In this document: positions 19,112 through 37,133 of the stretch, piece by piece | Numbering within the stretch: position 1 is the stretch's first letter | Layout: every line of letters starts with the position of its first letter | DNA from: an uncultured Desulfuromonas sp. | GTDB taxonomy: Bacteria > Desulfobacterota > Desulfuromonadia > Desulfuromonadales > Desulfuromonadaceae | Assembly: GCF_963678835.1 (NCBI RefSeq) | Contig: NZ_OY787469.1 | Coordinates: forward strand, 868,001 to 932,000 | Direction: 5' to 3' | Length of the DNA stretch: 64,000 nucleotides | The notes under the pieces: generated by a model | Seen by the model: the letters and a program-made list of their open reading frames with translations, nothing else | The model's database searches: none | What the model was told of the DNA's origin: nothing | Position numbers and translations under genes: made by a program

Positions 19112-19990
19112 TCAACGACCTTCATGGTTGAGCTGTTCAAAGCCAAAGGTCACATCGAACAGCTCGGTGTCAATGGTGTCCTGGCGGCGACGGTGATAGG
19201 TGCGTTGCAGGCTTTCGAGCTGGTCCTGAATGTTCTTTTCCGCCCGTTGCATGGCCGTCAAACGGCAGATGTTTTCACTGGCCAGAGATTCGGCACAGGC
19301 CTGAAAAAACGAGATGAATAGATACTCCTTGAGCAGGGCGATGAAGGTATCGTCAAGGCGGCCGCAGATCTCGGGCAGTGCCGAAGAGGGCCAGTCTAGG
19401 CGGCTGAGTTGCTCCTGCCACGCGAGGTCGAGCGGCAGGATGGTCCGCATGCGCGGGACATAGGTGGTGCCGAGATGGGGCGCATTGTAAAAGACCTGCA
19501 TGCCATGACGTTGCGGTGTCAGGCTAAGATCGGCATTGTCGAGCTGCAGATCAATGCCCAATTCTGTGATTGAATCAACGCTGGTCGGTATGCGATACAC
19601 CTGATCGGCGGCATGGTTGTGCGTCTCAAGCTGACCGGCAATCCGTTCGCCGATGGCAATCAGACGCCGGGGCTTGCTTCTGGGAAGTTTTTTCAGGGCA
19701 AAGGCCACCAGACTTTCATTGAACTGACCGACCAGCCCTTGATCTGAGCCGAAGATCAGCACCAAGGTCAGTGGCGGGTCTTGTTGGTTGTTTTTGAAGT
19801 TCGCCGGCAGTGCGCGCAGACAAGCACTCAGACCCAGATCAACCGTGTGGCCGTAATGGCGTAACGATTCTACAGCTTCTTCGTATTGACTGATGCTGGA
19901 AGCGGCCAGCGCCTTCATGGTGCGCACCACACCGGCGAGGTCGGTGGCACTGTTGATTTTGCGTTGCAGGCCGAGCAGGGTGTCGCTCAT
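19112..19990 (-). CDS. atpG: N-ATPase gamma subunit
   Basis: A 292-residue homologue of the F1 central stalk. The N-terminal coiled coil ([35 protein letters not shown]) and the C-terminal coiled coil ([37 protein letters not shown]) are both present, the two parts that form the rotor axle in the alpha-beta hexamer. Last canonical gene of the atpDCQRBEFAG order; its ATG overlaps the atpA stop by four bases. Diverged from housekeeping gamma subunits, as is usual in N-ATPases. Confidence 0.9.
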
Positions 19991-21507
19991 GGTCCGTTCT
20001 CCGTCAGTGCCCGGCGCGCCAGAGCCGTGATCTCGTCCATAACCGCGGTGTCAAAGGTTGCTTCCCCTGTCAGTTGTTGCTGTTGCTTCTCATCGAGCCC
20101 CTTCATGGCATCGCGCACGGTTTGTTCGGCTGTCGCCATGCTCTCCTCATCAATCGGATCAAACAGGCCACTGTTGAGAGCCTGCAGCACGCCCAGCTGT
20201 TCGATCACCGAAACCGGGCTGTATTGCTGCTGTTTCAGGCAGGCGCGAATGCGTCGGCCATGGTTGATGGTGGCCTGAGTCGATTCATCGAGCCGGGTGC
20301 CGAAGCGGGCAAAGGTTTCCAGTTCTTCAAACTGGGCATAAGCGAGTTTCAGGTTACCGGCAATCCTGCGGTACGCTTCGAGTTGGGCTTTGCCGCCCAC
20401 CCGCGACACCGATTTGCCGACATCGATGGCCGGCAGCGCGCCGAGTTCAAACAGGGTGGGCGATAGATACAGTTGTCCGTCGGTGATGGAGATCAGGTTG
20501 GTGGGGATATACGCCGACATGTTCTGCGCTTCGGTTTCGATAATCGGCAGGGCGGTGAGTGAACCGCCGCCGTGGTCCGGGTGCAGGTGGGTGGCGCGTT
20601 CAAGCAGTCGCGAGTGGATATAGAAGATGTCGCCGGGAAATGCCTCGCGGCCGGGCGGGCGGCGCAGCAATAGTGACAGTTCGCGGTAGGCGCGGGCGTG
20701 GTGGGTCAGGTCGTCATAAACAATCAGCACATCATCGCCCTGGCGCATAAACTCTTCAGCAATGGTGGTGGCGGCATAGGGGGCGATGTATGACAGGCCC
20801 GGAGGATCGTTGCCCTCGGCCACCATGACCACGGTGTAGTCCATGGCGCCGCGTCGTTCCAGCTCGGCGATAACCCGTGCCACGGCAGCGGAGCGCTGGC
20901 CGATGGCGCAGTAGACGCAGCGGACGTTTTTCCCCTTCTGGTTGAGGATGGTGTCGATGGCGATGGCGGTTTTGCCGGTTTGGCGGTCGCCGAGGATCAG
21001 CTCACGCTGGCCGCGACCGATGGGTACCAGGGCATCAACCACCTTGATGCCGGTATGCAACGGCGTGGTGACCGGAGCCCGTTCCATAATGGCCGGAGCC
21101 GGACGTTCAATGGGCAGGCGGTGCTGATTGTTGACCGGCCCCTGTTGGTCGAGGGGCGCACCCAGTGGGTTGATCACCCGGCCGATCAGCGTCTCGCCCA
21201 CGGGGACATCCATGACCCGCCCCGAGCGGCGTGCTTCATCGCCGGTGTGCAGATATTGATAATCACCGAGCAGCACCACGCCGACTTCGTCGGCATCGAC
21301 ATTGAAGGCAATTCCTTCAATACCATGGGGAAACTCAACCCGTTCCTCGGCACCGACACCGGGCAAGCCGTTGATTTTGGCAATGCCGGTGGAAACCGTG
21401 GTGACGCGGCCCGATTCACGGATGGCCACGTGATCCGGTAACGCATCCACGCCCTGTTTGAGGTGGGTGCAGGCCGAATCGATCCATTGCTGAAAAAGAT
21501 CACTCAT
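19987..21507 (-). CDS. atpA: N-ATPase alpha subunit
   Basis: A 506-residue F1-type alpha subunit. Walker A is [13 protein letters not shown] (near residue 160), with the alpha-type [38 protein letters not shown] before it and the [33 protein letters not shown] segment after it. The start ATG at 21507 follows GGAGCAGGACC and overlaps the end of atpF by eight bases. In the complex it forms the noncatalytic nucleotide sites. Confidence 0.95.
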
Positions 21508-22291
21508 GGTCCTGCTCCGTGTTGTCGTCACAAGGCTGTGACGAGGCATGGGTCTGGCGCAAGTGATCCGACAGATCGGCCAATTGACTGGCCAGCGTCC
21601 AACTGACTTTATGGCCGTCAGTCAGCAGTTCGGCACCGCACAGCAAGTCGGCCTGGGTTTCAAACACCAGGTTTTCACAACCGATGGCCTGGTGCAGTTG
21701 TTCAGAGATCCACTGTTGCTCCTGATCCTCGAGTGGTGCGCTGGTGACCAGACGAGGTGGTTTTGATGCGCTGGCCAGCGCCGTTGTCAGTTCCTGCTTT
21801 TCTGTGTCGTCGAGGTGGTGGAGTTTGTCCATGAACACCCGCAGACTCTGTTGTTCCAGAGAGCGGTCAGCAAGCTGTTCGAGCATGTGCTGCAACGATG
21901 ACAGCAGTTCATTTTCAATGCGTTGGCGGATGCGCAGGCTTTCCGCTTCCTGTTCGGAGCATAACTGGTCATGCCAGACCTGCCGCTTGTTGTCGACGTC
22001 GCGGCGCACTTGTTCACTGAGGTGTTGCTTCAGAGTTGCCGCTTCGGTGCGGATATCATCCAGTGCCTGCTGACGATTTTGTTCCAGCTCTTCGCGCTGC
22101 GCGATGAGTTGTTTTTGCAGCTCTTGGGCCTGTTGCTCACGCTGTTCGGCTTCCTGCTGTTTGTCACGCAACCGTTGCTCACGTTTGTCGATGGCGTCCA
22201 GCAGCGGTTTGTAGAGAAAACGCTTGAGCAGCCAGATCAGGATCAGGAAATTGATCAGCTGGGCAATGATGGTAAAGGTATCCAATAGCAT
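21500..22291 (-). CDS. atpF: N-ATPase b subunit with extended C-terminus (b/delta role)
   Basis: A 263-residue peripheral-stalk protein, much longer than an ordinary b subunit (about 155-170). One N-terminal membrane helix ([26 protein letters not shown]) is followed by a long charged coiled coil (residues 35-150) and a C-terminal region from about 160 that could take the place of delta: no atpH gene is present in this operon. This enlarged b and missing delta are characteristic of N-ATPase operons. Sits 22 nt after atpE. Confidence 0.92.
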
Positions 22292-22295
22292 GGCG

Positions 22296-22574
22296 TTACC
22301 CTCCTGCCGCCTCCAGGAAATGGTTCCAGAACGGATTGGCGAACAGCACGATCATCGATACGACAAAACAGTAAATAGCCGTTGATTCAACCATGGCCAA
22401 ACCGACAAACAGGGTGCGGGTAATGGTCGAAGCGGAATCGGGCTGCTGGGCCAGGGACGTCAAGGCCGAGGCCACAGCGCGACCTTCGCCAAGTGCCGAG
22501 CCGATGGAGCCGATGGCGATGGTGATACCGGCGGTGAAAATGGAGATCATAGCGATCCAGGTTTGCGCTTCCAT
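22296..22574 (-). CDS. atpE: N-ATPase c subunit (rotor ring)
   Basis: A 92-residue two-helix proteolipid. Helix 1 (IAMISIFTAGITIAIGSIGSALGEG) and helix 2 (TLFVGLAMVESTAIYCFVVSMIVLFAN) flank the polar loop LAQQPDS. The ion site has Glu63 with Ser64, Thr65 and Tyr68 (ESTAIY), the sodium-type ligand set, and an additional Glu30 in helix 1 where sodium c subunits have Gln. Two carboxylates per hairpin is a feature of N-ATPase rotors; whether the ion here is Na+ or H+ cannot be decided by eye. The ATG at 22574 has AGGAGG four bases upstream. Confidence 0.94.
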   Translation of the reverse strand: MEAQTWIAMISIFTAGITIAIGSIGSALGEGRAVASALTSLAQQPDSASTITRTLFVGLAMVESTAIYCFVVSMIVLFANPFWNHFLEAAGG

Positions 22575-22595
22575 AACTCCTCCTGAAAGAAACAC

Positions 22596-23267
22596 CTATT
22601 GAGGATGAATTCGGATGGCCGCAGCAATATAAACGATGGCCAAAACCGAGAAAATGTACGCTTGAACCATGCCGGTGAGCAGACCGAGCAGATTCATTAA
22701 TAACGGAAAAATCAACGGTGCGATCATCAGTAAAATCGCACCGATCATGGCGCCGCTCATCATGTTGCCGAACAGGCGCACCGCCAGAGCCAGAGTGCGC
22801 GACAGTTCACCGATGAGGTTAAACGGCAACATGATCCATACCGGCTTGAGGTACGAGGCGAGATAGTCCCTGACACCCTGGGAGCGAATGCCGTAATAAG
22901 GCACAGCGACAAAAACGATCACCGCCAGAGCCGTGGTGGTGGACAGCGAGCCGGTCGGCGCCTGATAGCCGGGAATGATCACCAGCAGGTTAGACAGGGC
23001 GATAAAGATGAACAGGGTCCCGATCAGCGGCAGATAGTGGCGGGCCGGTTTCAGCCCGGCGTCCTTGAGCAGGTCGACCATGGCAATGATAATCATCTCC
23101 AGTAATGCCTGCAGCCGGGTGTGATGGTCTTGTTGGGCCAGACGCCGTGTCAGCAGCCAGCTTCCCCCGACCAGTACCACCATCAGCACCCAGGTGGTGA
23201 CAATGGTCAGGTTGAGGTTTGCCCAGCCATGACTCCAGAAAATGACGGCATCGGAGCTTAATTGCAT
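22596..23267 (-). CDS. atpB: N-ATPase a subunit
   Basis: A 223-residue membrane subunit that forms the ion channel. Five to six hydrophobic helices are visible; the conserved arginine lies in GELSRTLALAVRLFGNMMSG (near residue 155), next to the c-ring. HYLPLIGTLFIFIALSNLLVIIPG is the typical helix 2-3 region. The ATG at 23267 has AGGAGG seven bases upstream and overlaps atpR by ten bases. Confidence 0.94.
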   Translation of the reverse strand: MQLSSDAVIFWSHGWANLNLTIVTTWVLMVVLVGGSWLLTRRLAQQDHHTRLQALLEMIIIAMVDLLKDAGLKPARHYLPLIGTLFIFIALSNLLVIIPGYQAPTGSLSTTTALAVIVFVAVPYYGIRSQGVRDYLASYLKPVWIMLPFNLIGELSRTLALAVRLFGNMMSGAMIGAILLMIAPLIFPLLMNLLGLLTGMVQAYIFSVLAIVYIAAAIRIHPQ

Positions 23268-23557
23268 GGTGTCCTCCTGCCTGTGTCGGGTTGGTTGACA
23301 GTGCGTGATACCACCGGCCGCGCCACGATAAACCCGGCAGTGCAGAGTAACAACCGCCACCATTGATCAGCGCTGACCCAGTAAAAGCCCACCAGGGTGA
23401 TAGCCACCCGAATCAGCATGCTGCCGATAAACCACAGTGCCGGATGCGGCGAAGTGACGGCCCGCTTCACGGTCCACCACAACCCGGCAAAGAAGATCAG
23501 TCCGAGGATAAAGCCGACACTGACGGCTAATGCGCCACCCAACCAGTCACTGGTCAT
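23258..23557 (-). CDS. atpR: N-ATPase subunit AtpR
   Basis: A 99-residue membrane protein specific to N-ATPases, with three hydrophobic segments (LGGALAVSVGFILGLIFFAGLWW, ALWFIGSMLIRVAITLVGFYWV, WWRLLLCTAGFIVARPVVS) carrying buried arginines that have been suggested to contact the c-ring carboxylates. Two ATGs are adjacent; the second (23557) has the better distance to AGGAGG. Overlaps both atpQ and atpB, consistent with tight coupling. Confidence 0.88.
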   Translation of the reverse strand: MTSDWLGGALAVSVGFILGLIFFAGLWWTVKRAVTSPHPALWFIGSMLIRVAITLVGFYWVSADQWWRLLLCTAGFIVARPVVSRTVNQPDTGRRTPCN

Positions 23558-23877
23558 CATTCTCCTCCTCTTGCGTCTCCGGCTGATGGTGAATCTGCTG
23601 CTCTTCGTGGGAGACCCAGCGCCAGGCCGCCAGACAGCCAAGGCCGATGCCGATGGGCAGCAGCGTCAACGTCCACGATGGGCCGCCTTGCACATGGCGG
23701 TCCAGCCAGATGCCCACGGCAATGGCCACCAATGTCGGTATTGCCACGGACCAGCCGACAATGCCGAACAGGCTGAAGCCGCTCCACAGTGGTTGTTGAT
23801 TGCGGATCTGCTCCGTGCGCTTGCGCTGCGCTTTGCGATCAACGGTTTCGTGAAAGCGCTCCTGATGTGGCTTGCGA

Positions 23878-23885
<8 letters not shown>
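23547..23885 (-). CDS. atpQ: N-ATPase subunit AtpQ (AtpZ/AtpI family)
   Basis: A 112-residue protein: a charged N-terminus (SDRKPHQERFHETVDRKAQRKRTEQIRNQ) followed by two membrane helices (SLFGIVGWSVAIPTLVAIAVGIWLD and SWTLTLLPIGIGLGCLAAW), as in AtpZ/AtpI proteins linked to c-ring assembly or Mg2+ transport. ATG at 23885 overlaps atpC by eight bases. The acidic C-terminus (QEEENDDQ) is short. Confidence 0.88.
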
Positions 23886-26149
<2,264 letters not shown>

Positions 26150-26386
26150 ATGAAAAAAATGATCGTTCTGATGGCTACTGCAGCGTTTATCGGTGGCCTG
26201 TGTTCTGCGGCTTTTGCCAGCGTCGACGGCGAAGTTGTTAAAGTACGCGGCAGCAAAGTAACTGTAGAAGTTTCCAAATCTGACGCTAAAAAAATCTCCA
26301 AAGGCGACAAAGTTGAGATGGACATTGAAAAAGGTGCTGCTTCTTCCGCTCCTTCCGGCGGCAGCGATATGCTGACTGGCTGCTAA
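26150..26386 (+). CDS. Small exported protein of unknown function
   Basis: A 78-residue protein. Residues 1-23 form a signal peptide (MKKMIVLMATAAFIGGLCSA, cleavage likely after AFA), leaving a ~55-residue mature chain rich in Lys, Asp, Val and Ser (SVDGEVVKVRGSKVTVEVSKSDAKKISKGDKVEMDIEKG) that could form a small beta barrel (OB or SH3-like), and a flexible end SGGSDMLTGC with a C-terminal cysteine. AGAGGAGA lies six bases before the ATG. A terminator separates it from the selenocytochrome gene; the highly regular codon use suggests strong expression. I do not recognise the family. Confidence 0.75.
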   Translation: MKKMIVLMATAAFIGGLCSAAFASVDGEVVKVRGSKVTVEVSKSDAKKISKGDKVEMDIEKGAASSAPSGGSDMLTGC

Positions 26387-26412
26387 GCCTTTCGCAATCA
26401 TAGCTTGACCCC

Positions 26413-26444
26413 GAGACCCGCATCTTTCGATGCGGGTCTCTTTT
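26413..26444 (+). terminator. Rho-independent terminator
   Basis: GAGACCCGCATC and GATGCGGGTCTC form a perfect 12-bp stem with loop TTTC, followed by TTTT. It lies 27 bases after the small exported protein and just before the cytochrome gene. Confidence 0.9.
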
Positions 26445-26467
26445 AATCACATCTATAGGATATTACA

Positions 26468-27829
26468 ATGAATCAATCTAAAAACATCAGCATTTCTTTG
26501 CTGATCGTGCTGCTCAGCGCCACCTGCGTCTTCGCCATTGGCGCCGGCGTTGGTCGTGACGGCACCATCGCAGCCACCAAAGGCAAAGCCAAAACCCTGG
26601 CAGAGCTGATCGATATGTACGACTCGACCGCCTGCATTGATTGCCACGAAGAGATTCACGACGACTGGGCGGCATCTCCCCACGCCCGTCCCATGTACGG
26701 CACCGGCCGCACCGCTGCCACCATGATCACCGCCATGAAAAACGGTTTCATGTCCTGGGCGTACTCCGGCGTTAACGGTCCGGAAGACGTTAAGGTTGAG
26801 CACCTGATGGGCTGCGCCAAGTGTCACCTGCCGCAATTGGCTGACGCCGAAGACAGCGTTGCCGTTGAGCTGGTTCACACCCTGTACGATTGGTACGATG
26901 CCGCCAAAGCCGGTAAAACAGAAGAGCGCGCCAAGTACGAGGAAACTCTGCTGGCCCTCAACATCAACTGCCTGATCTGCCACAACCGCATGGCCATCAC
27001 CCACAAGTGGACCGACGGTTATCCGCAAAGCGATACCGTGTATGGTTTCAACGAAGGAGAGCACGAAGACGAGCACTTCACCAAGATGAAAGTCAGCCCG
27101 ATCATGAACGAGTCGATCTTCTGTGGTCAGTGCCACGGTCTCGGCCCCAACTTCGAGCTGGAAAACCCCACCCAGTGCGCCACCCTGTACGGCAGCTACC
27201 TGTGGTCTTACACCGCTGAAGGTGGCCACGAGCGTTGTCAGGAATGTCACATGGAGAAATCCGGCCTGGGTCACAAGATCCTGAGCTACAGCGATCCCAC
27301 CATGCAGGAAATGGCTGTTGACTTCGACGTCGAAGCCTTTGCCACCCGCTGGCGTGATGGCAGCAAACTCACTCCGAAAACCGTCCTGAAAGTGAAAATG
27401 ACCAACCGTGCCGGCCACGCCATCCCTGATGGCTGACCGACCCCTAACCGACTGGTTCTGTCGGTACGTGCAACAACAGAAGAAGAAGGGGAAATTTTCA
27501 CCAAAGACATCATCTACATGCCGACGCCTCAGCAGTTCGGTCGCAGCGACATCATGGGTCGTGGACCTTACGAGAAGAGCGGCATCATCGAAGACACCTG
27601 CCTGCCTCCAGGAAAAGAAGTTGAAGAGCGCTTTGACATCTTCTTCCCCACGGATGACGTGAAAAATGCTGCCGGCAAAATGGTACGAGAAACTCTCGAG
27701 CGCGAGATGGACGTCACCGTTGAGCTGTGGTACCTGCCTTTCGGCAACAAGCGGACTTCTGCTCAATTGTGGAAAGAGTGGGAAAAGACCATCACGATCA
27801 AGTCAGACGGTCTTGGTAGCCCGCGCTAA
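26468..27829 (+). CDS. Probable selenocysteine-containing five-heme c-type cytochrome (UGA at codon 323)
   Basis: A 453-residue exported cytochrome if the UGA at 27434-27436 is read as selenocysteine. Residues 1-23 are a signal peptide. Five CxxCH heme sites: CIDCH 56-60, CAKCH 116-120, CLICH 168-172, CGQCH 219-223, CQECH 257-261. A heme-free C-terminal domain follows, in which NRAGHAIPDG-U-PTPNRLVLSVR runs straight through the UGA; the frame then stays open for 130 codons to TAA at 27827 with the same codon use (LVLSV, DIIYMPTPQQFGRSD, EREMDVTVELWYLPFG). A 6-bp hairpin sits 10 bases after the UGA (separate entry). GHxxPxG segments occur in C-terminal domains of other multiheme cytochromes. 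The alternative is a pseudogene with a nonsense mutation, or a 322-residue truncated product. A periplasmic or outer-surface redox role is likely; the substrate is unknown. Confidence 0.82.
27437..27465 (+). promoter_or_regulatory. SECIS-like hairpin after the in-frame UGA
   Basis: Ten bases after the UGA, ACCGAC (27447-27452) and GTCGGT (27460-27465) form a perfect stem with loop TGGTTCT (27453-27459). Bacterial SECIS elements lie directly 3' of the UGA with a short stem about 11 bases away and a loop containing GGU, as here. A SelB-binding role is inferred. Confidence 0.7.
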
Positions 27830-27852
27830 AAGGCGCTAAAGCAACACCATTG

Positions 27853-27889
27853 AAAAGCCCCTGCAGAGATTTCTGCGGGGGCTTTTTTG
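27853..27889 (+). terminator. Rho-independent terminator after the cytochrome
   Basis: AAAAGCCCCTGCAGA pairs with TCTGCGGGGGCTTTT (one G-T or mismatch) and TTTTTT follows. It is 25 bases after the TAA at 27827-27829, supporting the view that transcription continues through the UGA to the distal stop. Confidence 0.88.
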
Positions 27890-27944
27890 TTTATGGCTCA
27901 CGTTGATGGGGAGAGGAAGAGACGGTGACCCTCTGTGGTTACGT

Positions 27945-30097
27945 TTTTTTGCACGAATTGCTCCGGCGACCATCATCCGTTCGCGATGATGGTACCCACG
28001 TGACGCGGGCTTCCGCGCCCGCACGTCGGGCCACATTTTGCGTCGACAAAAGTGGCGCAAAATCGACTCCCGTCATTGCACCCTATCGGGTTCCCTCACT
28101 CCATTCTCTTACATCGCGATGTCGGCAAAACTCGCTGACGCTCAGACAGGTTGCCGACAACCATCGCGCTGACGTTCATTGCGTTCGGTGCTGCTGAACG
28201 GGAGGGCTTGGCAGCTCAATAACACACGACTGCAGGGCGGGCACCGTCCCGCCCGTTTAATTGGTGCCACAGAAGGAATAAAAATAGACGTAAGCCTGTT
28301 ACCAACGTTTTACGCCAGAGCTGATGAATTGCATGATTCGTCGACCTAAAGGGCGGCGAGCCGGATCCGTGATGCACGTCGGAAACAGACACAGTGTCGG
28401 TTGATCTGAGGGTCAGGAGGTGTTCAAGCCGGTTTTTGCATACTTTTGAACGGCAAGTCAAAAGGATGTCGCCTGCCGGGGCGAGTCCCGGCGACTTTGA
28501 TCTTGGTTTTTCGTGGTTCGCATTTTGGAACCATTTGCGCTGGCAGAGAGCAACCGTTCGCATAGTTGGTACGCACGTGACGCGGGCTTCCGCGCCCGTC
28601 CGTCGGGGTACTTTTGCGCCGACAAAAGTACCGCAAAATCGACTCCCAAGGGGTTGTCATCAATCAGCCTTCACGGAGTTGTTGCGGATCTTTTTCACGT
28701 CAGCGGCGTTATCGGTCGTCGCCATAGAACGACTATAGCTCCTCCCTCTGCCTTGCTGACGCAAAAAATCTCACGCAACACCTCTCGTTCATCTGATTCA
28801 TAACAACCCCATTGCACCCTGCGGGTTCCCTCACTCCATTCTCTTACACCGCGATGTCGGCAAAACTCGCCCAGTCGGCATCAGTCCTCAAACAGGTTGC
28901 CGACAACCATCGCGCTGACGTTCATTGCGTTCGGTGCTGCTGAACGGGAGGGCTTGGCAGCTAAATTACACTCTGCCGCAAGGGTGGGCACCGTCCCACC
29001 CGTTTGAGCGGGGCCACGGAAGAAATAGAGTGAGACGTAAAAGGTTATCAACGTTTACGCTAAAGATGATGATTTGCAGGATTCGCCGACCTAAAGGGCG
29101 GCGAGCCGAATCTGTGACGCATAACGGAAACAGACCCATTGTCGGTTGATCTGAGGGTCAGGAGGTGTTCAAGCCGGTTTTTGCATCCTTTTGAGCGGCC
29201 AGTCAAAAGGATGTCGGCTGCCGGGACGAAACCCGGCGACCTTGATTTTGATCTTGGTCTTCAGTGGTTCGTAATACGAAACGAATCGCACCGGCAAACT
29301 TCATCCGTTATCATAGTTGGTGCCCACATGACGCGGGCTTCCGCGCCCGCCCGTCGGGGTACTTTTGCGTCGACAAAAGTACCGCAAAATCGACTCCCAA
29401 GGGGTTGTCATCAATCAGCCTTCACGGAGTTGTTGCGGATCTTTTTCACGTCAGCGGCGTTATCGGTCGTCGCCATAGAACGACTATAGCTCCTCCCTCT
29501 GCCTTGCTGACGCAAAAAATCTCACGCAACACCTCTCGTTCATCTGATCAATAACAACCCCAATGCGCCCTTACGGGTTCCCTCTCTACATTCACTTACA
29601 CCGCGATGTCGGCAAAACTCGCCCAGTCGGCATCAGCCCTCAAACAGGTTGCCGACAACCATCGCGCTGACGTTCATTGCGTTCGGTGCTGCTGAACGGG
29701 AGGGCTTGGCTGCTCAATTACACGCGACTGCAGGGCGGGCACCGTCCCGCCCGTTTGATCGGGGCCACGGAAAGAATAGAGCAAGGCGTAAGCCTGTTAT
29801 CAACGTTTTACGCCATAGGCGATGAGTTGCACGATTCGTCGTCCTAAAGGGCGACGAGCCGAATCCGTGACGCATGACGGAAACAGACGCATTGTCGGTT
29901 AATCTGAGGGTCAGGAGGTGTTCAAGCTGGTTTTTGCATACTTTTGAGCGGCCAGTCAAAAGGATGTCGGCTGCCGGGACGAAACCCGGCGACCTTGATT
30001 TTGACCTTACTCTTCAGTGGTTCGTCATTTGAAACGAATCGCACCAGCAAACACCACCCGTTCGCAATGGTGGTGCGCACATGACGCGGGCTTTTTT
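27945..30097. repeat. Tandem ~750-bp repeat array 2 (about 2.9 units)
   Basis: Same repeat family and orientation as at 16786-18745. GCTGCTGAACGGGAGGGCTT recurs near 28190, 28936 and 29690 (steps of about 746 and 753); GTGACGCGGGCTTCCGCGCC near 28001, 28578, 29329, and a cut copy near 30080 where the array ends. The first unit lacks about 170 bases. The well-conserved block GTTATCGGTCGTCGCCATAG (near 28708 and 29459) also occurs in array 1. I see no conserved reading frame; the long open frames arise from the high GC content of the repeats. Confidence 0.85.
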
Positions 30098-30210
30098 GTT
30101 TGTGGTTCTCTTTGAATTCGACCTGAAACAGTGAAGCCATTAGCGGCAGATTGCATCCATGAAACAATGTGTTTGTTTGATAAATGCAGGGTCTTGTGAG
30201 CTTCACATGC

Positions 30211-30951
30211 TTAAAGAAGCCGTACAAAAATATCCTTGCCTTCTTCGTGCGACAAATGCAGGTGAAGGCCGTCCTGACTGTTGATCACCAGTTGAGACTC
30301 AGGAGCAAGACACAGATCCTGAACACTGCGCACCGATTCCAGAATCAGCTGACTGCCGGGTTGGATGGAAGCCTTGATCAGGCGTTGCTGAGCCTTGTGC
30401 CCGCCGAGCAGCCGTACGACATGGAATCGTTTATGGGCCGAAGCCAGGGAAAACTGAATGTACGTCTGGCCGCATTCGCCCCAGATCCGAGCTGCGTCAC
30501 CTTCGCTCAGTGTGACACAATGGTTGTCTTCCAGGCGAACGCGGTATTCCATGGGCGGCAATTTGCGGATCAGAGTGATGGGTTCCTCTTCTTTGAGTCC
30601 CAACGTTTCGAGGATCTGCGCCAGGCTGCGACCACCGGTGGTGCCTTCGATGTGACCGGACTGGCCGACCTCCATATCCATCAACGGCAGACGGCGGCCG
30701 TCATCGAGATGAATAATGGTTTTCAGCCCCATGCCGCCGCTGAGAATGGCCTGCCCCGATGCACTCTCTACGCGGATGGTGCGCAGGGTCAGGGTTTCAT
30801 CCAAACGCGTTAGACGGCTGTTGGCGGATAAGCCGATTTTTTCCAATTGCAAGGCAAGCCGTCGGTCGTGGATGGCGTGGAGAATTAACGGCTGATCCAC
30901 AGGCGCGTCGCACAGTGGGATGGGGGTGTCAGTGGGGGTATGCGCGGTCAT
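30211..30951 (-). CDS. Protein with probable tandem FeoA/SH3-like domains
   Basis: A 246-residue soluble protein that appears to hold three FeoA-like (SH3-fold) modules: residues about 15-90 (LHAIHDRRLALQLEKIGLSANSRLTRLDE), 93-170 (MDMEVGQSGHIEGTTGGRSLAQILETLGLKEEEPITLIRKL) and 170-246 (VRLLGGHKAQQRLIKASIQPGSQLILES). FeoA modules normally bind the cytoplasmic part of FeoB. Its ATG overlaps the stop of the P1B-ATPase gene by four bases, so it is the last gene of that operon. A role as cytoplasmic partner of the ATPase in ferrous iron transport is inferred from this link. Confidence 0.72.
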   Translation of the reverse strand: MTAHTPTDTPIPLCDAPVDQPLILHAIHDRRLALQLEKIGLSANSRLTRLDETLTLRTIRVESASGQAILSGGMGLKTIIHLDDGRRLPLMDMEVGQSGHIEGTTGGRSLAQILETLGLKEEEPITLIRKLPPMEYRVRLEDNHCVTLSEGDAARIWGECGQTYIQFSLASAHKRFHVVRLLGGHKAQQRLIKASIQPGSQLILESVRSVQDLCLAPESQLVINSQDGLHLHLSHEEGKDIFVRLL

Positions 30952-33056
30952 GAGCGGTCTCCCGATACGGGGTTTACCGGAGTAGAGGCGTGGAACGTCA
31001 GACTGCGTGACGCACTCCAGCCGAGAATAGAAACGGTGAGCAGATTATGCAACAGTGCTGCCGTCACCGGAGCAATCCGCCCGCTCAAGGCGCCGAGCAG
31101 GAACAGGCTGTTGCCGCCGACCGCCGCATAAAACCCTTCACTCAGGGTGTGCTTGGCCCGATCCGCGATCTCCAGAGCATGAAGCAGCGTATTCAGATCA
31201 TCCTGAATGAGAATCACCTGGGCGGCATCCCGTGCCAGGTCGGCACCACTGGGCATGCTGATACCGACATCCGCCGTTACCAGAGCGGGCGCGTCGTTCA
31301 CGCCATCGCCGACAAAGGCCACATTGCGCCCCTGCTGTTGTAACTGCTTAATCAGCGTGGCTTTATCCTGAGGCTTGAGTTGCCAGTGGATCGCATCAAT
31401 CTGCGGCAGTTGACGGTGCAGCGCCTTGGCCGTCTGTTCGTGATCCCCCGTGAGAACGACCAACCGGCGTTGGCTGTCTTTCAGTGCATTGAGCACCTGT
31501 GACGCTTCCTTGCGCAGCGTGTCACGCAAGGCGATCACCCCTTCCAGACATTGACCTCGGGCGATATAGAGGAGGCTTTTCCCCTCACCGTGCAAGCGTT
31601 CTTCATGGACAGATGCGCTCCGGCACTCAATCCCTTCATCGTCATGGATAAAGTGGCGACTGCCGACCAGCACCTGTTGACCGTCGACATAAGCGGATAC
31701 GCCGTGGGCGACGATAAAGTCAACGCGACTGATGGGCAACAGATCGATCCCTTGCGCCGCCGCGTGACCGACCACGGCCTCGGCAATAGGATGAGCATAG
31801 TGCTCTTCGGCGCTGGCGGCCAAAGCGAGCAGTTGTCGCGGCGACAAATCCGTCAACGGCACCACATCGGTGACCTGAAGACGCCCTTCGGTCAGGGTGC
31901 CGGTTTTGTCGAACACCAGAGTATCGACCGCTGCCAGGCGATCCAGCGTGGCCGCGCCTTTGATCAGCGCGCCCTGATGGGCGGCCGCGTACATGGCCGT
32001 ACGCACGGTGATCGGCGTGGCCAGCTTGATGGCGCACGAGTAATCGACGGTCAATGCGGCGGCGGTTCGACGGATATCGCGGGTCAGCAGAAAAATAACC
32101 CCGGCCAACCCCAAGGTGATGGGCACCAGCCGTTCCGCCAATTGCTCGCTGTGGCGCTGGGTTTCCGACGACGAGCGCAGCGACTGCTGCAAAAACAGGT
32201 TAATGCGCGCCAGTCCGGTTTCACTGCCCACGGCATCGACACGAATGGCCAGGCGACCTTCTTCGACCACGGCACCGGAAAGAATGGCGTCACCGGCTTT
32301 TTTATGTACGGGAACGGATTCACCGGTAATGGAACTCTGATTGACCGAGGCTTCGCCGTGCACCACCCGGCCATCGATGGGGATCATTTCGCCGCTGCCG
32401 CACAGGATGGTTTGCCCCGGCTCAACCCGGTCGAGGGGCAGTTCGATCTCGACGCCGTCCTGTTCGACCCAGACCCGGTCCACCTGGGGCCGCAACAGGG
32501 TGCGCAGCAGACCGGAGGTTTTATCTTGGGAAAAGTATTCGAAATACTCGCCGAGGCGTAGCAAAAAGACAATCATGTTGGCGGTGAAATAATCGCGGCG
32601 CGCCAGACTGATGGCTACGGCTCCGGCGTCCAGCACATCGATTTTGATGCCCCGATCCAACAGGGTATCAATCCCTTTAAGCAGGGTGGGCAAAGCGATC
32701 ATCAGGCTGATGCCGCCCTGAATGGACGGCGGCACCCCGCGCAGGAATACGGCCAGAACACCCAATCCGACCACGGTCAGCGGGTTGACCGATTCCTGAT
32801 CAGACTGAGGGACGGTAAAGACGGTTTGCGGCAGCGGATCGAGCAGCGCCCGCACCCGTTGCTCCAGCGTGGCGTCGCCTTCATGCCAGACCGTCACGCT
32901 GGCCGCAATGCTGTTGATCCGCACCCGGCGCACCCCCGGCACGTTCTCCAGCAATGCCTGCAAATAGAGCGGATCGAGACGGCGATGGCGAAGTGCTGGA
33001 CATCGCAGCCGCAGTCGCTCACGACTGCGATGGAGTACAGTGAGCGCAGCGGTCAC
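30948..33056 (-). CDS. P1B-type metal ATPase with SCA motif (FezB-like)
   Basis: A 702-residue heavy-metal ATPase. The Arg-rich N-terminus (LHRSRERLRLRCPALRHRR) is followed by an HMA-like fold without CxxC (VPGVRRVRINSIAASVTVWHEG). Membrane, actuator (ITGESVP, near 250), phosphorylation (FDKTGTLTEG, Asp near 382), nucleotide-binding (HP in EEHYAHPIAEA, near 417) and hinge (GDGVNDAPAL) motifs are intact. The transmembrane metal motif reads DYSCAIKLATP (near 336) in place of CPC, with no proline between; this and the missing metal-binding Cys fit the branch to which ferrosome ATPases (P1B-6) belong, so Fe2+ transport is likely but inferred. The GTG at 33056 is chosen since GGAG precedes it and it overlaps the TGA of the previous gene (GTGA); a longer GTG start at 33113 is possible. 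Confidence 0.85.
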   Translation of the reverse strand: MTAALTVLHRSRERLRLRCPALRHRRLDPLYLQALLENVPGVRRVRINSIAASVTVWHEGDATLEQRVRALLDPLPQTVFTVPQSDQESVNPLTVVGLGVLAVFLRGVPPSIQGGISLMIALPTLLKGIDTLLDRGIKIDVLDAGAVAISLARRDYFTANMIVFLLRLGEYFEYFSQDKTSGLLRTLLRPQVDRVWVEQDGVEIELPLDRVEPGQTILCGSGEMIPIDGRVVHGEASVNQSSITGESVPVHKKAGDAILSGAVVEEGRLAIRVDAVGSETGLARINLFLQQSLRSSSETQRHSEQLAERLVPITLGLAGVIFLLTRDIRRTAAALTVDYSCAIKLATPITVRTAMYAAAHQGALIKGAATLDRLAAVDTLVFDKTGTLTEGRLQVTDVVPLTDLSPRQLLALAASAEEHYAHPIAEAVVGHAAAQGIDLLPISRVDFIVAHGVSAYVDGQQVLVGSRHFIHDDEGIECRSASVHEERLHGEGKSLLYIARGQCLEGVIALRDTLRKEASQVLNALKDSQRRLVVLTGDHEQTAKALHRQLPQIDAIHWQLKPQDKATLIKQLQQQGRNVAFVGDGVNDAPALVTADVGISMPSGADLARDAAQVILIQDDLNTLLHALEIADRAKHTLSEGFYAAVGGNSLFLLGALSGRIAPVTAALLHNLLTVSILGWSASRSLTFHASTPVNPVSGDRS

Positions 33057-33262
33057 GTCGTCTTCTCCACGCTGGTCGCGCGACGGGGGGAAGGATACAG
33101 GTTGTAATGCCACACGGAAAAACCTATCAGGGCCAGGCCCTGCCAGGTGTGCGCCACCATCCGTTTACGCCGCGGGCCGGGCGAGGCCGCGCTGTACACC
33201 AGCGCGGCCAGCGACACGGTCATGCCTGTTTTGGCAATGCGCTGTAATTGCTTTGAGGTCAT
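33053..33262 (-). CDS. Small membrane protein in the P1B-ATPase operon
   Basis: A 69-residue protein with two hydrophobic stretches (TGMTVSLAALVYSAA and HTWQGLALIGFSVWHYNLY) separated by the basic segment SPGPRRKRMVA. It resembles the small basic two-helix proteins encoded next to metal ATPases, but I cannot name the family. AGGAG lies seven bases before ATG at 33262; its stop overlaps the ATPase start. Confidence 0.72.
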   Translation of the reverse strand: MTSKQLQRIAKTGMTVSLAALVYSAASPGPRRKRMVAHTWQGLALIGFSVWHYNLYPSPRRATSVEKTT

Positions 33263-33281
33263 CGACAGGCTCCTATCTGCC

Positions 33282-33650
33282 CTATTTATCCGTGCGCTCT
33301 TTCATTTCAGCCTGCATGTCTTCAAATTTTTCTTTCAACTCCTCCACTCCGGCCTGCGCCGCATTGAAAACGGTAGTTGCTCCTTTGATCAGGCTTTTTT
33401 GCACGCGATCATTGCTCAGCAACAGAGCCAGACCGACACCGATCAGGGCACCTTTGACAAACTGGTTATCGCCGGAAGCGGGCGGCACGGACGTCTGGGT
33501 GGGCGTGCCAAACGGCAGTGAACCGTTTAGCGGAGAGGCGGGCGAAAAGCCGTACGCCGTGGCCCCGGGTTCCGGGTGTGAACCGGAGCATCCGCAGGAT
33601 TCCTGAGTCGGCATGGTGGGCATCTGGGGCATGGTGGGCGTGGTATGCAT
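33282..33650 (-). CDS. Small protein with one membrane helix and coiled-coil tail (YtxH-like)
   Basis: A 122-residue protein. The N-terminus is Met/Pro/Thr-rich (HTTPTMPQMPTMPTQ) with a Cys-Gly-Cys (SCGCSG), possibly metal binding. A Gly-rich helix (KGALIGVGLALLLSNDRVQKSLIKGA, about 70-95) is followed by an amphipathic helix (VEELKEKFEDMQAEMKERTDK). The helix and following DRVQ/SLIKG pattern repeats in the protein at 34093-34572 (KGLLIGGGLTFLFSNESVRHTV), so the two are related. ATG at 33650 has AGGAGG upstream. Part of the ferrosome-like operon; membrane-shaping or lumen-associated roles are speculation. Confidence 0.75.
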   Translation of the reverse strand: MHTTPTMPQMPTMPTQESCGCSGSHPEPGATAYGFSPASPLNGSLPFGTPTQTSVPPASGDNQFVKGALIGVGLALLLSNDRVQKSLIKGATTVFNAAQAGVEELKEKFEDMQAEMKERTDK

Positions 33651-33664
33651 GAAAGACCTCCTGA

Positions 33665-34012
33665 TCAATCGTTATCGGTTGTTTTTTTACGGCCCAACGT
33701 ATTGATGGCATAGCCGACGCCGGTGGCCGTGGCCAACAGTACGGTCCAGTTGGTCAGACGGCTGCCGCCAAGGCTTTGGACCGCAGCCGTGGCCACGGCC
33801 GCAGCAATACCGGCACCGGCGCCTTTGGCCAGACTGTCGGCCGTGGCTTCGCCGAGAGTCATCTCTTTATCGCGAACTTTGTGCAGGTTCATGCCCATGG
33901 CTGCGGTGGAACCGACAACGGTGCCGAAAATTCCGGTATTGAGCACGGCGGTCGGCTGCAGGGTCGAGGTACGGTAGATCTGAGTAGTGGTGTGTGTTGG
34001 GGTCGTGGACAT
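33665..34012 (-). CDS. MamC-like Gly/Ala-rich two-helix membrane protein
   Basis: A 115-residue protein with two hydrophobic helices (TGIFGTVVGSTAAMGMNL, residues 27-44, and GAGIAAAVATAAVQSLGG with a following VLLATATGVGYAINTLG) linked by a charged stretch KVRDKEMTLGEATADSLAKG. The order G-x-x-G helix, KxxRxKEMT/ITxxEA linker, AGxA-rich helix recalls the magnetosome protein MamC, judged by eye only. It sits between the two P1B-ATPase genes and would fit the membrane-organelle proteins of ferrosome-like clusters. AAGGAG precedes the ATG. Confidence 0.75.
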   Translation of the reverse strand: MSTTPTHTTTQIYRTSTLQPTAVLNTGIFGTVVGSTAAMGMNLHKVRDKEMTLGEATADSLAKGAGAGIAAAVATAAVQSLGGSRLTNWTVLLATATGVGYAINTLGRKKTTDND

Positions 34013-34092
34013 ATAACCATCTCCTTTATGGGTGTTTCAAGAGTTTCAATAAGACAATCGGGCTGACATGGATGCTGCGTTATAACGACAGA

Positions 34093-34572
34093 TCACTCCT
34101 CGTCCTTGCCGCGTTTAAACAGATCGGTCACGGTGTGGCGGACGCTTTCGTTGCTGAATAGAAAGGTCAGTCCACCACCGATCAGCAACCCTTTCCAGAA
34201 GCTGTTGCTCTGAGTGTTGATAAAGGAGAGACCACCGGCAACATCCTGCATGTCGACATCACCACGGGCGAATTTTTCCGCCATGCGCATAAAATGCTCG
34301 GCCTGTTCCTGAGGCGTCTGATGATGGTCGCAGTGCTCGGAGCCGTGTTCTTTTTCCGGCTCTTGAACCGGCGGTTTGCCGCCACTGGCCATGTGTTGCC
34401 ACATCAACTGCTGATCCGCGGCCATTTGCTGCAACATGGTCTGCTGGGCTTGAAGATGTTGCCACATCTGAGTCAGATGTTGTTCGGTTGAGGGCTGTTC
34501 CTGGGGGCCGTTCGGCTGCTCCGGCGTCTGGTGGATGCCAGCCTGTTCAGCGCAAACTGATTCGGGGCTCAT
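34093..34572 (-). CDS. Gln/His-rich protein with a C-terminal membrane helix
   Basis: A 159-residue protein. Residues 1-75 are Gln/Met/His-rich and probably coiled (TEQHLTQMWQHLQAQQTMLQQMAADQQLMWQHMA), followed by an acidic/His segment HGSEHCDHHQ that could bind metal, then a C-terminal helix KGLLIGGGLTFLFSNESVRHTVTDLFKRGKDEE that matches the protein at 33282-33650. AAGGAG lies eight bases before the ATG. Belongs to the same operon as the two P1B-ATPases. Function unknown. Confidence 0.78.
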   Translation of the reverse strand: MSPESVCAEQAGIHQTPEQPNGPQEQPSTEQHLTQMWQHLQAQQTMLQQMAADQQLMWQHMASGGKPPVQEPEKEHGSEHCDHHQTPQEQAEHFMRMAEKFARGDVDMQDVAGGLSFINTQSNSFWKGLLIGGGLTFLFSNESVRHTVTDLFKRGKDEE

Positions 34573-34585
34573 GGTGTTGCTCCTT

Positions 34586-34918
34586 TCATGATGGGGTGTG
34601 ATGCCATAAATTCAACAGTTCCTCGCGCATGGTCGGTCGTTGCGGTTCGGGCAGAGTGATCAACCGTTCCCACAGCTTTGGATCAATGATCGTTGGATCG
34701 TATTCGATGACCACGGAACCGTTTTTACTATTGAGGCGATGGTAACGAATGCCGGGCAAGTCCGTCGTGATATTGTCCAGGTCGAGATCAGCCAGGGCTT
34801 TTTTGGCGGCCAGCGCCATTTTGATGCGAATCCGTCCCGGAATGTGATGGGCAATACGCGCGTAATCGGCAATACGGAACAGGGCGTTAATCAGGGTTTG
34901 TTTGTCATGGTCAGTCAT
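34586..34918 (-). CDS. HMA-like small protein without CxxC (FezC-like candidate)
   Basis: A 110-residue soluble protein with one HMA-like fold: HHIPGRIRIKMALAAKKALADLDLDNITTDLPGIRYHRLNSKNGSVVIEYDPTIIDPKLWERLI. The beta-alpha-beta pattern and the GRIRIK / NGSVVIEYD strands match heavy-metal-associated domains, but the metal-binding CxxC is absent and a basic IPGRIRIK takes the place. Basic versions occur also at the N-termini of both neighbouring ATPases (HTPHRLRVRIKG in the second). Start ATG at 34918 overlaps the end of the second ATPase gene by eight bases. Confidence 0.78.
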   Translation of the reverse strand: MTDHDKQTLINALFRIADYARIAHHIPGRIRIKMALAAKKALADLDLDNITTDLPGIRYHRLNSKNGSVVIEYDPTIIDPKLWERLITLPEPQRPTMREELLNLWHHTPS

Positions 34919-37133
34919 GCGTACTCTCTGTGTCTGTGATGTCGGCGACGGGAGTCGGCAATCCTTGTGCCTGCCAGTGCAACAGAGCACTGGAGTTAAA
35001 CAGGATGCCGAGGGTGTGAACAATATGCAGACCACCGGCCATCAGCGGCGACAGCAGTCCGGCCGCCCCCAGCACCACGCCGCCGATGTTGGTCCACATG
35101 GCCAGCTGATGGTTCTGCTCAATGGTGCGCAGGGTTTTGCGGCTCAGTTGGCGCAAACGCACCAGGTTTTCCAGGTCGCTGTCGGCCAGGGCGATGTCCG
35201 CGGCCTCAATGGCCACTTCGGCACCGCCCGCGCCCATGGCCACGCCGATCTTGGCATCGGCCAGGGCCAGGGCATCATTGACGCCGTCGCCAACCATGAC
35301 CACCTTGCGGTTCTGTGCCTCAAGCTGGTGGAGAAAGGCCGCTTTCTCTTCCGGCAACAGGTCGGCCCGCCAATCGCGAAAATGGAACGACTCACCGAGA
35401 GAGCGTGCCATGCGCTGCGTGTCCCCGGTCACCAGATACATGTCGTGAACACCGTCGGCGCGTAGCCAGTCGAGCACAGCCGGGGTTTTGGGACGCACCC
35501 GGTTGGCCACGGTCAGCAAAGCTTGTGCCTTGCCTTCGCGGGCCAGATAAATCAGGGTGTGACCAAGCTCCAGTTGTTGGGTGGCGGCCCCTTTAAAATA
35601 GCGGATGTCGATGGCGTGCTCGGCCATCCATTTGTCATTGCCGACCAGCACGCTGCGATCGTCGATTTGCGCTTTGACGCCTCGACCAATGGTGAATTCG
35701 CAGCTGGCATGTCGGGGAATCTCCAAGCCGCGTTGTTGCGCCTCATGGGTGATGGCGCGGGCCATGGGGTGCGGCGTGTGCATTTCAGCCGCCGCTGCCA
35801 ACGCGAGCAAGGTGTCAGGGTTCTGGCGTGAGCTACGTGGGAAGATCTCCATCACCTGGGGTGTTTCCACGGTCAGGGTGCCGGTTTTGTCGAAGCAAAA
35901 GCAGTCGGCTTCACCGAACTGTTCCAGATAGTAGCCACCCTTGATGAGGATATGGTTGCGGGCGGCATTGGCCAGCGCTGCCGACACCGCGGTGGAGGCG
36001 GCCAGCACCGTCGCGCACGGACAGGCCAACACCAGCAGCACGGTAAAGGCACGGATGGGGCTGAGGGTGATGAGGAAGGTGCCGGTCACGGCAATGGCAC
36101 CGAGGCGCATCAGCCGGTCGGCCAGCATGTCGGCACGTTTTTCCGCCGGAGCCTGGTTGGCCAGAGCGTTTTCGACCATGGTCAGGATACGGCACAGGTA
36201 GGTTTCTTCACCGAGGCGTTCTGCGCGGATGAACAAGGTGCCCTGGCGAATGATGGTACCGGCGAATACCGCATCGTCTGCGCTGTGCGCTGCCATCTCC
36301 GAACGGCCGTTGACGGACGATTCATCGACCAGGGCACTGCCGCGGATGACGGTGCCGTCCACGGCAATCTTTTCCCCGGTATGACAGACGACCGTATCGC
36401 CCTGTTTGACCTCATCGACGGCAATTTCCACTTCAATGCCGTCAACAAGGATAAACGTGTTTTTCTCCGTCAGTTCGAGAATATCGCGGATAGCGCGATG
36501 AGAGCGGCGGGCCACATAATCTTCGAGCAACATGCCGATGCGCAGAATCCAGATCACTTCCAGCGCGGTCAGTGCCTGACCGAGGGCAATAGCCAGAAAA
36601 CAAGTCGCGGACAAAAACGGAAACAGGCTCTTATGGCGACCACGACGCATTTCGGCCCAGGCTTCGCGAAACAACGGGATTGCCGCGACCAGAGCCACCC
36701 CGGACGTCAGGCTCAAGGCTTTTTCAGACACCGGTTTGCGCAAAAGGGTCTGGCGGATAAACACCCACACGACGTAGCCGGTCAGCAATGTCACGCCTAT
36801 CAGTTGGCGCGTCAGGGACGGGGCCGGTTTTTCCGCCGGATGGCAGCGGGCGCAAACCAGATCGCATTCGCAACCGGGCTGATTGGGCAACGGCGTTGCC
36901 GGAGGCTTGGCCGCATAGTTTTTAAAAAGGGCTAACAACTCGCGCCTCAGAGCCTTATCCGGCGCATGGGTCAACACCAGACACCCGGAACGAAGTTTGG
37001 TCTGATGAGCAACGGGCAAAGACGATTGTTGCAGCAAAAGATCCAGCTCTTTGCCGAGCAAACGATTGTTACGCAATCCTTTAATACGGACACGCAGCCG
37101 GTGCGGTGTATGGTGACGAACGCTGATCTGCAT
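34911..37133 (-). CDS. P1B-type metal ATPase with CPC motif
   Basis: A 740-residue heavy-metal ATPase, first gene of the ferrosome-like operon. An HMA-like N-terminus without CxxC (HHTPHRLRVRIKGLRNNRLLG) is followed by a Cys cluster CECDLVCARCHP (about 88-99), then six to eight membrane helices. TM4 holds LACPCATVLAAS (near 372), phosphorylation site FDKTGTLTVETP (Asp near 414), and hinge GDGVNDALALADAKIGVAMGAGGAEVA. The TGES actuator motif reads NGRSE (SSVNGRSEMAA), a notable departure that may slow dephosphorylation. CPC suggests a soft or transition metal; specificity is open. A CRP/FNR-like site lies about 95 bases upstream. Confidence 0.88.
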   Translation of the reverse strand: MQISVRHHTPHRLRVRIKGLRNNRLLGKELDLLLQQSSLPVAHQTKLRSGCLVLTHAPDKALRRELLALFKNYAAKPPATPLPNQPGCECDLVCARCHPAEKPAPSLTRQLIGVTLLTGYVVWVFIRQTLLRKPVSEKALSLTSGVALVAAIPLFREAWAEMRRGRHKSLFPFLSATCFLAIALGQALTALEVIWILRIGMLLEDYVARRSHRAIRDILELTEKNTFILVDGIEVEIAVDEVKQGDTVVCHTGEKIAVDGTVIRGSALVDESSVNGRSEMAAHSADDAVFAGTIIRQGTLFIRAERLGEETYLCRILTMVENALANQAPAEKRADMLADRLMRLGAIAVTGTFLITLSPIRAFTVLLVLACPCATVLAASTAVSAALANAARNHILIKGGYYLEQFGEADCFCFDKTGTLTVETPQVMEIFPRSSRQNPDTLLALAAAAEMHTPHPMARAITHEAQQRGLEIPRHASCEFTIGRGVKAQIDDRSVLVGNDKWMAEHAIDIRYFKGAATQQLELGHTLIYLAREGKAQALLTVANRVRPKTPAVLDWLRADGVHDMYLVTGDTQRMARSLGESFHFRDWRADLLPEEKAAFLHQLEAQNRKVVMVGDGVNDALALADAKIGVAMGAGGAEVAIEAADIALADSDLENLVRLRQLSRKTLRTIEQNHQLAMWTNIGGVVLGAAGLLSPLMAGGLHIVHTLGILFNSSALLHWQAQGLPTPVADITDTESTHD

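Follow-up and report, generated by a model that had tools for sequence, protein, structure and literature searches.

The extKL gene in the window, by which we mean the whole 64,000-nucleotide stretch of DNA that was analysed, very probably encodes a cytochrome in which a UGA codon is decoded as selenocysteine (Sec323) through a downstream hairpin; the protein is likely exported, and the selenocysteine would stand beside a heme and act on an oxyanion, for instance selenite, by binding or reducing it. This reading is supported by the family membership of the gene, by the UGA or rare Cys codons of its relatives, by the sel genes of the genome and by the frozen codons of the hairpin. The selenocysteine cytochrome is very likely real and its family is already known. 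Beyond the cited literature, the analysis adds Cys counterparts, two hairpin designs and a second, probably homogenised copy of the gene.

The continuous frame at 26468-27829 on the plus strand is split by a single UGA at 27434-27436, codon 323, as the original prediction had claimed. The 322 codons before the UGA with five CxxCH motifs (starting at residues 56, 116, 168, 219 and 257) and the 130 codons beyond it, closed by a TAA stop at 27827-27829, were likewise confirmed. The terminator expected after the distal stop corresponds to a terminator-like hairpin at 27852-27887; the consensus scan of the plus strand gave no terminator-like hairpin between the UGA and that stop, and another one precedes the gene at 26413-26440. 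The 6-bp stem with the loop TGGTTCT that had been placed 10 bases 3' of the UGA lies at 27447-27465. The parts of the locus are the following.

26150..26386, plus strand: extJ, a 78-residue small protein upstream of extKL (open reading frame; aligned with its C2 counterpart within the duplicated block)
26413..26440, plus strand: terminator-like hairpin between extJ and extKL, 12 pairs (consensus scan)
26468..27829, plus strand: extKL, pentaheme c-type cytochrome of 453 residues with a predicted Sec at 323 (sequence, NF040886, PDB relatives)
26633..26647, plus strand: heme-binding motif 1, CIDCH, residues 56-60 (sequence; C56, C59 and H60 invariant in alignment A1)
26813..26827, plus strand: heme-binding motif 2, CAKCH, residues 116-120 (sequence, alignment)
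26969..26983, plus strand: heme-binding motif 3, CLICH, residues 168-172 (sequence, alignment)
27122..27136, plus strand: heme-binding motif 4, CGQCH, residues 219-223 (sequence, alignment)
27236..27250, plus strand: heme-binding motif 5, CQECH, residues 257-261 (sequence, alignment)
27317..27796, plus strand: C-terminal beta domain, strands from residues 284 to 443, with Sec323 in the loop 314-327 (predicted model)
27416..27418, plus strand: codon of His317, a putative distal heme ligand (invariant in 45/45 aligned relatives)
27434..27436, plus strand: UGA codon 323, predicted selenocysteine (sequence, relatives, PDB alignment)
27447..27465, plus strand: predicted SECIS hairpin of type A, stem 27447-27452 with 27460-27465, loop 27453-27459
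27852..27887, plus strand: terminator-like hairpin 3' of the distal stop, 16 pairs (consensus scan)

Since the hairpin at 26413-26440 is a strong one, extJ and extKL may be partly uncoupled. In the predicted structure model, residues 2-27 form a helix, a putative signal peptide, and export of the protein is likely. On the minus strand the gene has ATP synthase genes upstream (19112-25705; alpha/beta and c subunits by Pfam), whose order we take to suggest an N-type ATPase cluster, and a FeoA-domain protein with two P-type ATPases downstream (30211-37133).

By sequence, the gene is a member of the already known ExtKL/MccSep family of pentaheme cytochromes, which has a solved relative. The segment 26468-27829 scored 603 bits against the NCBIfam model NF040886, "multiheme c-type cytochrome (seleno)protein ExtKL", with a curated cut-off of 250, and the five CxxCH motifs of the family are present. 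PDB chains of another organism named "Multiheme cytochrome c selenoprotein (MccSep)" (9wt8/9wta/9wtb and 9wt9/9wtc) align over residues 12-448 with 636 bits. Codon 323 faces X in one MccSep sequence and Ala in the other, a U325A mutant. The 9wt entries were absent among the 50 matches listed by Foldseek (PDB copy to 8 April 2026), and a literature search for MccSep gave just one paper, an unrelated one from neuroscience, while a broader search listed no paper on the protein. The penta-heme cytochrome c552 of Thermochromatium tepidum (5ze8) is 21% identical and has Ala at the Sec position of a weak sequence alignment.

According to the available sections of PMC1914089, the family was proposed in 2007 from Geobacter sulfurreducens, G. 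metallireducens and others including Desulfuromonas acetoxidans; neither a SECIS nor a non-selenocysteine homologue was found at that time, and the protein is called a rare selenoprotein lacking non-Sec homologues. Excerpts of later articles name ExtKL among the selenoproteins (a 2026 review, PMC13188914), count GSU2937 among the cytochrome families common to six Geobacter genomes (PMC2825233) and describe an ExtKL homologue as highly expressed in Seep-SRB2 (PMC10553843). Term searches of PMC2398784 and PMC5029168 found cytochrome nowhere mentioned. A single family has been proposed for ExtKL, GSU2801 and the pentaheme cytochromes sPHC and lPHC of cable bacteria (excerpts of PMC11976967). The models given there predict one or more pentacoordinated hemes in sPHC, the group to which ExtKL belongs; the words selenoprotein and selenocysteine occur 0 times in that account. 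The ExtKL of G. sulfurreducens (GSU2937-GSU2936) shares with the window's gene the five c-type hemes, one in-frame UGA and an extJ just upstream. It differs in that the window copy has no adjoining extI-like gene, whereas a second copy on another contig has one, and no extM-S genes were named in the stretches examined around either extKL locus. We take PMC1914089 to be Fujita et al. 2007, PMC5877670 to be Jahan et al. 2018 and PMC6148476 to be Jimenez Otero et al. 2018.

For the function, selenite or metal reduction, we rely on analogy with the Geobacter literature. In excerpts of PMC5877670, loss of ExtI in G. sulfurreducens impaired the reduction of selenite and tellurite, not that of Fe(III) citrate, and ExtKL was preliminarily linked to selenite reduction; metal-reduction phenotypes of extHIJKL are given in excerpts of PMC6148476. 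The same two sources place ExtKL differently, in outer and cytoplasmic membrane fractions (work cited by PMC5877670) in contrast to the periplasm (PMC6148476). Outside the CxxCH motifs, the histidines H72, H269 and H317 were invariant in 45/45 aligned relatives. H317 precedes Sec323 by six residues, and both were found in a predicted loop between the strands 300-313 and 328-337 of a model built without hemes. H317 may be a distal heme ligand near Sec323. If Sec323 faces the heme side of the loop, an oxyanion could be bound or reduced there with electrons from the heme chain, and we infer a heme-proximal or substrate-reducing role of the residue.

We give appreciable, though minority, weight to the proposal that ExtKL is mainly a component of an electron conduit for metal oxides and not an oxyanion reductase. 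It agrees with the description of extHIJKL as a putative conduit and with the greater abundance of ExtKL with Fe(III) than with fumarate (available text of PMC5877670). However, the window copy has no adjoining gene for an extI-like porin, the reported ExtI phenotype spares Fe(III) citrate, and plain electron carriage would not obviously need a selenocysteine.

The identity of codon 323 was followed through the relatives. In the order, 30 of 136 genomes gave an NF040886 match above the cut-off; in the class the figure was 63 of 277, and in a draw from the phylum 40 of 395. The three sets share members, and only part of the matches was retrieved as sequence. The collection of 163 sequences (the window and 162 loci, several of which are one place represented twice) contained 152 open frames that matched the profile made for this analysis, and 138 rows reach the Sec column. 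After identical and cut-off 108-nt contexts had been dropped, 114 distinct contexts were left, with UGA at codon 323 in 108, UGU (Cys) in 4, Ile in 1 and Val in 1. The UGA recurred in relatives down to 31% identity. UGU was found in L131, in the second tandem gene of L132, in L134 and in L135, which has a TAA elsewhere in its frame; ATC stands in the first gene of L132 and GTT in L121. Two loci thus hold tandem extKL-like genes without Sec, Ile followed by Cys in L132 (G302:C12) and Val followed by a cut-off copy in L121/L133 (G472:C132). Each genome that has a Cys form (G547, G302, G590 and G554) contains a UGA form as well. In a quick tree, the three Cys rows included fell in three separate places, all on long branches that leave their placement unsure; L135 was too short to be included.

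A division into two genes, extK and extL, with the UGA as a true stop and the 130 codons as a second protein, is highly improbable. G. sulfurreducens is annotated in this way (GSU2937 and GSU2936), and the excerpts of PMC1914089, where a SECIS was not found, leave a "highly conserved operon" as an alternative. We rejected this division on the uninterrupted non-Sec relatives, which have Cys, Ile or Val at the codon of one full-length frame, on the conserved and synonymously frozen codons on both sides of the UGA and on the solved relative, which is one chain across the site. Insertion of another amino acid, or plain read-through, has the same very small chance; the Cys counterparts, the complete set of Sec genes and the PDB chain, by its name and its X residue, led us to reject it. 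A sequencing error or pseudogene, to which the frame breaks of a few relatives (TAG in G047, TAA in G554:C11) might point, has next to no chance and is refuted by the recurrence of the same UGA in both copies of the genome and in 108 distinct contexts.

Decoding of the UGA as selenocysteine requires a matching gene set, and selA, selB, selD and a tRNA-Sec, for which the original prediction had asked, were all found in the genome. Their scores, each above its cut-off, were 611 bits for selA, 365 for selB, 369 for selD and 71 for the tRNA-Sec. The genes selD, selB and selA adjoin one another at C1:1497890-1502190, and ARAGORN reported SeC(tca) at L055:2297-2392. The tRNA-Sec model gave a second match above the cut-off, with 47.9 bits, which ARAGORN calls tRNA-Trp. 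The selD gene itself carries one in-frame UGA (L020, G000:C1:1497890-1498807). Downstream of this UGA, 25 bases on, a 6-bp stem with a 7-nt loop, AGGUGCU, could form, to which a longer 8-bp form is an alternative; drawn with this loop, the element resembles the extKL loop UGGUUCU. The reading as a probable selenocysteine cytochrome was thus supported. None of the three outcomes named as speaking against it was seen, namely a genome without sel genes, homologues without Cys or Sec at position 323 and homologues that end naturally at residue 322, of which no full-length one occurred among the loci examined.

The window's hairpin, termed type A, has the 6-bp stem ACCGAC/GUCGGU and the loop UGGUUCU, 10 bases after the UGA. 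Codons 327-332 inside it (AAC CGA CTG GTT CTG TCG) showed zero synonymous variation in 46/46 type-A relatives. The mean relative codon entropy was 0.149 over codons 324-333 and 0.718 over 122 other conserved columns, and none of 100,000 random ten-column sets was equally low. The eight lowest-entropy windows of 72 begin at codons 321-328. The exact 19-nt hairpin was present in 52 of the 108 Sec contexts, and its invariance leaves no covariation. By itself, the hairpin is weaker evidence, because the window, taken on both strands, offers a similar geometry (a 6-bp Watson-Crick stem starting 8-14 nt downstream, with a GGU-containing loop of 4-10 nt) at 205 of 127,880 positions. The 45 nt after the UGA folded no better than shuffles (z -0.33), and their minimum-energy fold (-9.3 kcal/mol) is not this hairpin but a nearly equal alternative. 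Taken by itself, the 19-nt hairpin folds well, with -8.1 kcal/mol and a z of -3.05, for a stretch chosen post hoc. Rfam at the gathering threshold had no match within the 64-kb window.

The available part of PMC13188914 limits bSECIS elements to a loop of 3-9 nt, a stem of 4-16 bp, a G in the first two loop positions, 16-37 nt from the UGA to the loop and a minimum free energy of at most -7.5 kcal/mol. With 7 nt, 6 bp and the G of UGGUUCU, the loop and stem lie inside these bounds, and the distance from the UGA to the loop, 16 nt, is still inside at the lower limit. The energy of the 19-nt hairpin is also low enough, though the 45-nt stretch prefers its other fold. The proposed check against bacterial SECIS elements thus placed the hairpin inside the four bSECIS limits quoted there, with the spacing at the lower edge. 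SelB would read the type-A hairpin, a predicted SECIS.

The remaining 56 Sec contexts mostly have a second design, type B, in a shifted register, where bases 15-21 after the UGA pair with bases 30-36. This structure, named by the analyst, was paired in 84.9% of 385 cells in 55 sequences, and slid versions in 21.8 to 65.7%; the set is 55 of the 56 rows, as L138 was dropped for a frame disturbed after the UGA. Four pairs were changed on both sides, a number reached by 4 of 500 shuffles, and the covariation score was reached by none of 500. As a control, the type-A structure imposed on the type-B sequences paired 39.7% and did not exceed shuffles. RNAalifold gave no consensus structure for the 108 mixed Sec contexts or for the 55 type-B sequences, and the support for the type-B hairpin therefore comes from counts for a named structure. 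Only two conserved degenerate columns lie in the tested stretch of the type-B set, hence a synonymous freeze is not claimed for it.

With six of seven pairs as the type-B threshold, 14 of the 108 Sec contexts, all among the 56 non-A ones, reached neither hairpin threshold; of the 7 type-B pairs, twelve of these contexts form 3 to 5, L111 forms 2 and L138, with its disturbed frame, 3. Four contexts qualified for A and B alike, and the letters of the type-A loop occur in four type-B loops. Among the six contexts without Sec, one still reached threshold A and another threshold B, so that loss of the hairpin together with Sec is only a tendency.

In the quick tree, all 49 type-A rows belong to the window's class, presumably Desulfuromonadia. 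The 54 type-B rows include three marked from the window's class, which sit in a separate deep clade, and one from Nitrospirota. The tree requires three label changes for A, and its starred branches force one. The simplest reading would be that B is older and A its replacement. We lean towards a swap of the SECIS in an ancestor of the ExtKL genes of the window's class, with Sec and the protein retained. The older hairpin (stem 15-21 with 30-36) would have given way to a new one nearer to the UGA (stem 11-16 with 24-29), and bases 17-20 (UGGU) would have moved from the stem to the loop.

The second extKL, on contig C2, encodes a 99% identical protein and has one TGA. Compared with the extI-extJ-extKL part of the family's neighbourhood extH-extI-extJ-extKL, the gene order there is extI-like, extJ, extKL, and the window has extJ and extKL. 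The C2 extJ (77 aa) matched NF040942, "selenite/tellurite reduction operon protein ExtJ", with 71.7 bits (cut-off 52.5). In the extI-like protein, Pfam found DUF3373 and a sub-threshold Porin_5, and NCBIfam gave no family name. The duplicated extJ-extKL block spans 26123-27895 of the window and lies around 457135-458493 on G000:C2 (L053). Several near-copies of about 550-700 bases each stand downstream of the window copy (about 27950-30100); G027 and the DNA downstream of the C2 copy have comparable ones. At 27800-30400, TRF gave no arrays for periods up to 500, which leaves near-copies of this length unreported.

Four genomes of the genus (G000, G027, G034 and G035) hold both copies whole. 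The coding sequences of the two copies were 99.3, 99.1, 94.9 and 97.3% identical within the four genomes, and same-place counterparts between genomes 83.7 to 95.8% over all such pairs; in 4/4 genomes the own-genome pair was closer than either copy was to its positional counterpart. The flanks followed the place, with 72.6 to 93.7% identity within a place and 39.2 to 45.0% between places, and the tree of the coding sequences grouped the copies by genome in 4/4 (support 93/95 to 100/100). The extJ stretch was less clean: G027_B was 88.4% identical to G035_B and 83.3% to G027_A. In G031, two contigs end within extKL, as two near-identical copies would cause. Gene conversion probably keeps the two copies alike, the alternative being repeated fresh duplication into the same place. 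With the copies probably kept alike in this way, the window's extKL probably supplies more of the same protein and not a new function.

By sequence, both gaps of 2007, the SECIS and the non-Sec homologues, are narrowed by the frozen hairpin codons and the UGU counterparts. What SelB accepts can be studied on the two designs as on a natural experiment, as the UGA, the family and most of the protein are constant and the stem position and the loop differ. For the role of Sec in a multiheme cytochrome, the Cys, Ile and Val paralogues provide ready comparisons. If the proposed replacement of B by A is true, one recoding signal would have been swapped for another in nature while selection continued, within a family in which Cys also took the place of Sec several times.
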